In this document: positions 44,242 through 60,378 of the stretch, piece after piece
Numbering within the stretch: position 1 is the first letter of the stretch
How the letters are laid out: the number at the start of each line of letters is the position of its first letter
From: Anaerolineales bacterium
Lineage (GTDB): Bacteria > Chloroflexota > Anaerolineae > Anaerolineales > Villigracilaceae
Direction: 5' to 3'
DNA: 64,000 bases
NCBI GenBank assembly: GCA_030583905.1
Contig: CP129481.1
Location: 496,001-560,000, forward strand
Translations under genes and position numbers: made by a program
The notes under the pieces: generated by a model
Databases searched by the model: none
Told to the model about the DNA's origin: nothing
The model's input: only the letters and a program-made list of their open reading frames with translations

Positions 44242-44245
<4 letters not shown>
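43421..44245 (-). CDS. ABC-2 type transporter permease
   Basis: This 274-residue permease begins MNWRSIWAIAKKDLKEVRQNK, the usual cytoplasmic amphipathic start of ABC-2 permeases. About six helices follow. The segment FVGERERKTMEALLYAPTS, near residues 113-131, is the characteristic coupling loop of Nat/ABC-2 exporters. Its ATG overlaps the stop of the ATPase gene by 4 bases. It would export a small molecule, lipid or peptide, or protect against one. Confidence 0.85.
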
Positions 44246-45177
<932 letters not shown>

Positions 45178-45843: not shown

Positions 45844-45859
45844 TGTTTCACGTGAAACG
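45844..45859. promoter_or_regulatory. parS-like ParB-binding site 3
   Basis: TGTTTCACGTGAAACG matches parS at 15 of 16 positions. This copy lies between genes, in the 31-base gap between the SdpI and slipin genes, so codon use does not explain it. Confidence 0.78.
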
Positions 45860-59470: not shown

Positions 59471-59511
59471 AGGCGGCGCATTCACCAATAAAAGACGCCG
59501 CCTCGTTTTTT
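59471..59511 (+). terminator. Hairpin with T-run at the end of spoVS
   Basis: AGGCGGCG and CGCCGCCT form an 8-bp stem followed by CGTTTTTTAT on the plus strand. On the minus strand it covers the last base pairs of spoVS and the sequence behind it. The 195-base gap also has a TATAAT (minus strand, 59395-59400) that may serve the surface protein gene. Confidence 0.5.
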
Positions 59512-59782
59512 ATGTAGTTGGCACCCGCACCTCGACCACCAACTTGATCGCCGTGCGCACCTTCTCTTCGATCTCCACATCCACGAACTCGGGGACGCAG
59601 AACACCTCGATCCCGTCGTTCTTGAGATAACTGGAGGCAAGCACCAATGCCTTTACCGCCTGATTGACGGCGCCCGCTCCAATGGCTTGCACTTCTGCCC
59701 GCTTGTGCTCGCGGATCACGCCCGCGATCGCCCCGGCAACTGCAGAGGTACGGGAGTTGGCTGAAACTTTGATCATATCCAT
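59510..59782 (-). CDS. spoVS: Stage V sporulation protein S (SpoVS)
   Basis: SpoVS is a small Alba-like-fold protein that affects septum formation and coat maturation in Bacillus; it also occurs in non-sporulating phyla. The 90 residues begin MDMIKVSANSRTSAVAGAIAG and continue IREHKRAEVQAIGAGAVNQAVKALVLA, here from about residue 24, which is very close to the family consensus. GGGAGG lies 5 bases before the ATG. It is the last gene to the left of the gene-free stretch with DnaA boxes. A role in nucleic-acid binding is suggested by the fold. Confidence 0.93.
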   Translation of the reverse strand: MDMIKVSANSRTSAVAGAIAGVIREHKRAEVQAIGAGAVNQAVKALVLASSYLKNDGIEVFCVPEFVDVEIEEKVRTAIKLVVEVRVPTT

Positions 59783-59822: not shown

Positions 59823-60231
59823 TGTGGATTGTACAGGAATCCCTTAATAGATTCAAGCAGTATATTAGTATGATTATGGATTCGTAATAGTAGTAGGGGC
59901 TGTGGATAGTGTGGATAGATAACGTACGACCCTATATATGGGTTCGGATGCCGCGCCTCCCACCAGACCTGCGGGTTAACTCGACTCCCAAGCCTTCTCC
60001 ATACTGTGGATTTCTCTGTTGCAACTTTTCAACAGAATGAATGATCTAAAAAGAGCGCTTTTGATGATTTTTCCATATATCGGTATATCAAAAAAACACC
60101 CCCCATATATGGGGGCAAGCCTTTCTTAACTTGTCTGACCTTTTCTCTCATAAAAAGGGCTCTTGTCCACAGGGCAGGGGAGTTTTCCACAATTTACTGG
60201 CAGTTATCCACAGATTTTGGCTTGTGGACGG
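59823..60231. other. Candidate chromosomal replication origin (DnaA-box cluster)
   Basis: The 596-base gap between spoVS and the next gene contains no open frame of interest but many 9-mers near the DnaA box TTATCCACA. The exact 9/9 box is at 60204. Boxes with 8/9 are TTTTCCACA at 60183, TTGTCCACA at 60163 and two tandem TGTGGATAG copies at 59901 and 59910. Weaker forms lie at 59823, 60005 and 60223. An AT-rich block (60068-60096) that could unwind and an AT-rich right edge are present. Genes diverge at this point. dnaA is not adjacent, so this is a candidate only. Confidence 0.6.
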
Positions 60232-60378
60232 CTGTGTTGTCTAAACAAATAACCCAATATATGGGATGGCAGATGGGATATTTCGGATAGTAAAAGGAAC
60301 TTTGATGCTTTTTTGGCGTATTTCTATACCGTGTAGATTAATTTAATGTTTTGTTACAATTCGTGGATATAGAAGCCT

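Follow-up and report, generated by a model that had tools for sequence, protein, structure and literature searches.

Gene surroundings of the candidate region

The window considered in this study is a stretch of 64,000 nucleotides, namely positions 496001-560000 of the single contig (G000:C1; 4,127,769 bp) that represents the genome of a Villigracilaceae member of the Anaerolineales. Coordinates below refer to the window, and positions in kb above 64 refer to the contig. Two genes face away from each other across a gene-free gap, for which a first-pass annotation had given a length of 596 bases, and this is exact:

59510-59782, minus strand: spoVS (Pfam SpoVS, E 1.7e-34), bordering the gap on the left
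from 60379, plus strand: LPG_synthase_TM ("flippase-like") gene, bordering the gap on the right

The gap had been proposed as a candidate replication origin (oriC) lacking dnaA, with genes oriented as expected where two forks start. Within the window this orientation holds, since genes lie on the minus strand from 59.8 down to 51.0 kb and on the plus strand from 60.4 kb. However, the same-direction run is short: ~6 kb past the gap on its right side, beyond the window edge, genes return to the minus strand, so that gene direction lends the origin weak support. As had been proposed, dnaA is absent from the locus: it lies at 1,486 kb, ~0.93 Mb from the candidate origin, and therefore does not adjoin it. 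No DnaA boxes were found near dnaA, and the dnaA locus was considered as the origin and rejected. The encoded DnaA is intact, with the N-terminal, ATPase and box-binding domains all present. In relatives, dnaA is found on a different contig from the origin or distant on the same contig, and because the distance amounts to 1.84 Mb in one complete relative (G142) and ~0.62 Mb in another (G011), dnaA is not tied to the origin.

DnaA boxes and a BUS-type unwinding element

The following elements were located in the gap:

59823-60295, no strand: conserved non-coding DNA, proposed oriC core, ~470 bp DNA alignment in most same-genus genomes
59840-59884, no strand: predicted DNA unwinding element (DUE), AT-rich, low duplex stability
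59885-59896, plus strand: four DnaA-trios TAA-TAG-TAG-TAG (3'-GAT-GAT-GAT-AAT-5' read away from the boxes)
59897-59900, plus strand: GC-rich spacer GGGC, 4 bp
59901-59918, minus strand: two abutting DnaA boxes (starts 59901 and 59910), CTATCCACA twice, each 8/9
60005-60013, minus strand: weak central DnaA box TGTGGATTT, TGTGG retained in 31 of 32 aligned loci
60100-60115, no strand: 16-bp palindrome CCCCCATATATGGGGG, degenerate copies at 59930-59942, 60073-60083 and 60252-60265
60163-60171, plus strand: DnaA box TTGTCCACA, 8/9, right-hand array
60183-60191, plus strand: DnaA box TTTTCCACA, 8/9, right-hand array, 20 bp beyond the 60163 box
60204-60212, plus strand: DnaA box TTATCCACA, exact, 21 bp beyond the 60183 box, core invariant in relatives
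60237-60248, no strand: conserved near-palindrome TTGTCTAAACAA, single copy in 1.61 Mb of the genome
60277-60290, no strand: conserved GATATTTCGGATAG block

The exact DnaA box at 60204, the two 8/9 boxes to its left (60163 and 60183), the tandem 8/9 boxes at 59901 and 59910, and several weaker boxes had been listed in the first-pass annotation, and all were recovered, the weaker ones as seven boxes with two mismatches. Compared with random sequence (3000 order-1 Markov simulations), the gap holds five boxes with at most one mismatch versus 0.22 expected (reached in 0 of 3000 simulations, maximum 3), and 12 with at most two mismatches versus 2.5 expected. The DnaA-box cluster of a bacterial oriC is thus present beyond chance. 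Over the 39% of the genome covered, only one 400-bp stretch scored higher for boxes, at 792.6 kb.

What had been overlooked is a complete BUS-type element at 59885-59918, which reads TAATAGTAGTAG GGGC TGTGGATAG TGTGGATAG on the plus strand and comprises the trios, the spacer and two boxes, with the AT-rich DUE alongside. A BUS is defined by a DnaA box at most 16 bp from at least three NAN trios, of which 3'-GAT-5' is commonest beside the box; the GC-rich gap averages 4 bp, and the spacer to the better box is usually 10-13 bp (PMC8287927). Here, the four trios GAT-GAT-GAT-AAT sit 4 bp from the nearer box and 13 bp from the farther one. By duplex stability, the 50-mer that begins at 59840 falls within the lowest 0.2% for the genome portion sampled, in line with the AT-rich DNA noted previously; a predicted unwinding region of the kind found in bacterial origins therefore adjoins the boxes.

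Palindromes of the form CCC(N)ATATATGGG are repeated across 59930-60265 and kept in relatives, and of six CCCATATATGGG-like sites (at most one mismatch) in 1.61 Mb of the genome, three fall within the origin region. The gene spoVS remains beside the origin across the family while the opposite flank varies. It is conceivable, albeit rather doubtful, that a lineage-specific regulator of initiation, with SpoVS itself as a possible candidate, binds CCCCCATATATGGGGG with its copies and TTGTCTAAACAA.

Occurrence of the core in other genomes and conservation in the family

The 23-bp core of the element occurs once in the 4.13-Mb genome and is still single when three mismatches are allowed. Across 84,980 species genomes, where ~0.1 chance matches were expected, a scan for TCCACANCCCCTACTANTATTAC (with 21 fixed bases) found the string in at least 120 other stretches. 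Among these matches listed, 77 carry a DnaA-like gene 64-442 bp away, none of them in Chloroflexota (carriers include Clostridium, Staphylococcus and Sporosarcina), and 31 carry spoVS 96-387 bp away, all in Chloroflexota according to their records; no stretch among them adjoins both genes. The 12 listed matches with neither gene comprise eight that lie too close to the end of the stretch and four others. Since the string is dnaA-adjacent in 77 cases and single in this genome, it marks dnaA-linked origins in other phyla, as in firmicutes, and the window site here.

As DNA, the gap matches in 101 of 152 family genomes and in 19 of 26 genera, the remaining 51 genomes (fragmented or diverged) giving no DNA match. 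In an alignment of 32 loci, which come nearly all from one genus with the addition of G011 and G053, the most conserved parts are the boxes, the trios, the central TGTGG, CCCCCATATATGGGGG, TTGTCTAAACAA and GATATTTCGGATAG; the trios are unchanged apart from the third base of the second trio. Conservation drops past ~60295, and the final 80 bp before the plus-strand gene are unalignable. In G142 a different gene lies to the right of the origin, and the counterpart of that gene is found at 672-675 kb in the present genome.

Two observations concern individual records. Contig C21 of G053, which belongs to another genus, holds two origin-like matches (25752 and 86145) 60 kb apart, one of which is 74% identical to the genus of the present organism, possibly through transfer, duplication or contamination. 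A locus labelled Herpetosiphon (L209) carries a Villigracilaceae-type origin, and its label is probably wrong.

parS sites and ParB

The parS consensus GTTTCACGTGAAAC matches at three sites in the window:

44456-44471, no strand: parS-like site, 2 mismatches, within an ABC-ATPase gene
45092-45107, no strand: parS-like site, 1 mismatch, within the same ABC-ATPase gene
45844-45859, no strand: parS-like site, 1 mismatch, intergenic

Three such sites had been reported at 14-15 kb from the gap; they lie 14.4-15.7 kb to its left, all at 540-542 kb, and are the sole matches with at most two mismatches in the whole genome. Among 55 family genomes compiled with both parS and the origin region, 21 have them on separate contigs, where the distance is unmeasurable; in every one of the 34 others, where a single contig carries both, they are 6-58 kb apart (median 21 kb). 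As in ParABS centromeres, parS is thus unique and origin-proximal. The parB gene is located at 1,516 kb, ~0.96-0.98 Mb from oriC and parS. Within the ABC-transporter ATPase gene (44242-45177), the two internal parS sites translate as Phe-His-Val-Lys.

Strand-composition skew

For this genome, skew was derived from 1.61 Mb (39%) sampled as stretches, with fourfold sites corrected for transcription, a correction that proved useful in relatives and incompletely so here. The noise in raw GC skew at 2-kb binning precluded origin placement. The terminus is clear at ~2.40-2.44 Mb, roughly opposite the candidate origin. A GC-skew minimum near the gap had been named as a test of the first-pass proposal: GC skew places the origin on a flat plateau at 0.34-0.74 Mb, which contains the site, but the minimum is broad. 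AT skew at fourfold sites fits a switch best at 720 kb, 164 kb from the candidate, and rejects the candidate position (556 kb), where the fit is over 6 log units worse. Comparison with G142 reveals many inversions in gene order up to ~450 kb from the origin, of which several are symmetric around the origin, and such inversions would flatten the skew; the AT-skew preference for 720 kb in this genome may well arise from them.

The two complete relatives give sharper positions. For G142, the switch in AT skew at fourfold sites falls at 500 kb, the candidate being at 505 kb, and positions outside 460-500 kb all fit worse by more than 6 log units; its GC skew is uninformative on origin position. 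In G011, GC and AT skew are both best at 3,920 kb, with the candidate at 3,905 kb.

A second DnaA-box array and alternative explanations

The higher-scoring stretch outside the window is the following:

G000:C1:792608-792862 (L016:8608-8862): eight co-oriented DnaA boxes, four exact, spanning the 3' terminus of an rmlD-like gene and the gap that follows

About half of this array is coding. It is kept with 5-11 boxes in 15 of 15 relatives checked, and its distance to the origin is 56-465 kb where both share one contig; neither an unwinding element nor trios were found at it. A better box cluster next to dnaA had been named as evidence against an origin in the gap; a denser cluster does exist, but it is not near dnaA and has no unwinding element. 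The array is a candidate datA-like site for DnaA titration or regulation.

Could the array itself be the true oriC, leaving the window site as a secondary DnaA-binding locus? Its eight co-oriented boxes, four of them exact, its conservation and its position nearer to the 720-kb AT-skew peak speak for this, yet it lacks an unwinding element, is partly coding and lies 250 kb from parS. The relatives also speak against it: the corresponding array lies at 150 kb in G142, where AT skew switches at 500 kb, and at 3,677 kb in G011, where 3,680 kb fits worse than 3,920 kb by 3.3-3.4 log units. An origin at 792.6-792.9 kb is accordingly regarded as very unlikely. That the boxes in the gap form a DnaA-controlled spoVS promoter or a titration site rather than an origin is suggested by the location of the element, ~100 bp upstream of spoVS in a fixed orientation. 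However, trios, a GC spacer and a melting region would be superfluous for either function, the identical string marks dnaA-linked origins elsewhere, and parS linkage and skew also oppose this reading, the probability of which is minimal. It is equally improbable that an integrated plasmid or mobile element contributed this origin: the right flank does vary among relatives, but family-wide conservation already makes such an origin unlikely, and the site is single-copy, kept in 19 genera, and tied to chromosomal parS and the skew switch.

The region 59823-60295 is therefore, with little doubt, the chromosomal oriC, working by a DnaA/BUS mechanism and unlinked from dnaA. The original oriC proposal is strongly supported by the unwinding element, DNA conservation in the family, parS linkage and the skew switch in two complete relatives.

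Proposed initiation mechanism

Judging from the arrangement of the elements, DnaA made from the gene 0.93 Mb away would bind the two abutting boxes at 59901-59918, and the DnaA filament would then extend leftward across GGGC onto the single-stranded trios at 59885-59896, melting the AT-rich ~59840-59884 so that the helicase could be loaded. The boxes of the right-hand array (60163, 60183 and 60204), with their 20-21 bp, two-turn spacing, probably form a second DnaA platform that would help via DNA looping. ParB, likewise encoded at a distance, may load at parS 14-16 kb to the left and segregate the new origins.

Comparison with known systems

The B. subtilis-type oriC consists of a BUS with DnaA-boxes #6/#7, a GC-rich spacer, DnaA-trios and a DUE (PMC6669920, PMC8287927). 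The order, orientation and spacing of the elements described here (gaps of 4 and 13 bp to the near and far box) are alike, and the 23-bp core is letter-identical to the dnaA-side core in Staphylococcus simulans, several Clostridium, and Bhargavaea/Siminovitchia records. In B. subtilis, distal upstream boxes assist through looping (PMC6669920), and the right-hand array, a predicted platform, is likened to these. Unlike the B. subtilis-type oriC, the present region adjoins spoVS, is 0.93 Mb from dnaA, and has additional conserved palindromes and a three-box array on the opposite side. Unusual features are the location beside spoVS, the remoteness of dnaA, the palindromes and the second, distant box array, which is conserved.

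Of the 568 chromosomes covered by Ori-Finder, only 342 have an oriC that lies beside dnaA and near a GC-skew switch (PMC2275245), and the present origin resembles the dnaA-unlinked ones in that the initiator gene is apart from the origin. The neighbours given there are dnaA, dnaN, hemE, gidA or hemB (PMC2275245), as opposed to spoVS here. In the literature searched, neither spoVS as a neighbour of a replication origin nor anything relevant on replication origins of Chloroflexota was found. For this large Chloroflexota family, most of whose members are uncultured, a well-supported, base-level origin map is now available, which may serve to derive growth rates from coverage and to orient genomes, and the BUS model becomes testable in a phylum for which the literature found describes no such origin.

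The region is also like ParABS centromeres near oriC, with the parS consensus in a cluster of one to three sites at most 58 kb from the origin. It is unlike the usual ParABS region in that parB lies ~0.96-0.98 Mb from oriC/parS and two parS sites are inside an ABC-ATPase gene. The cis sites oriC and parS thus remain together, although dnaA and parB lie elsewhere.
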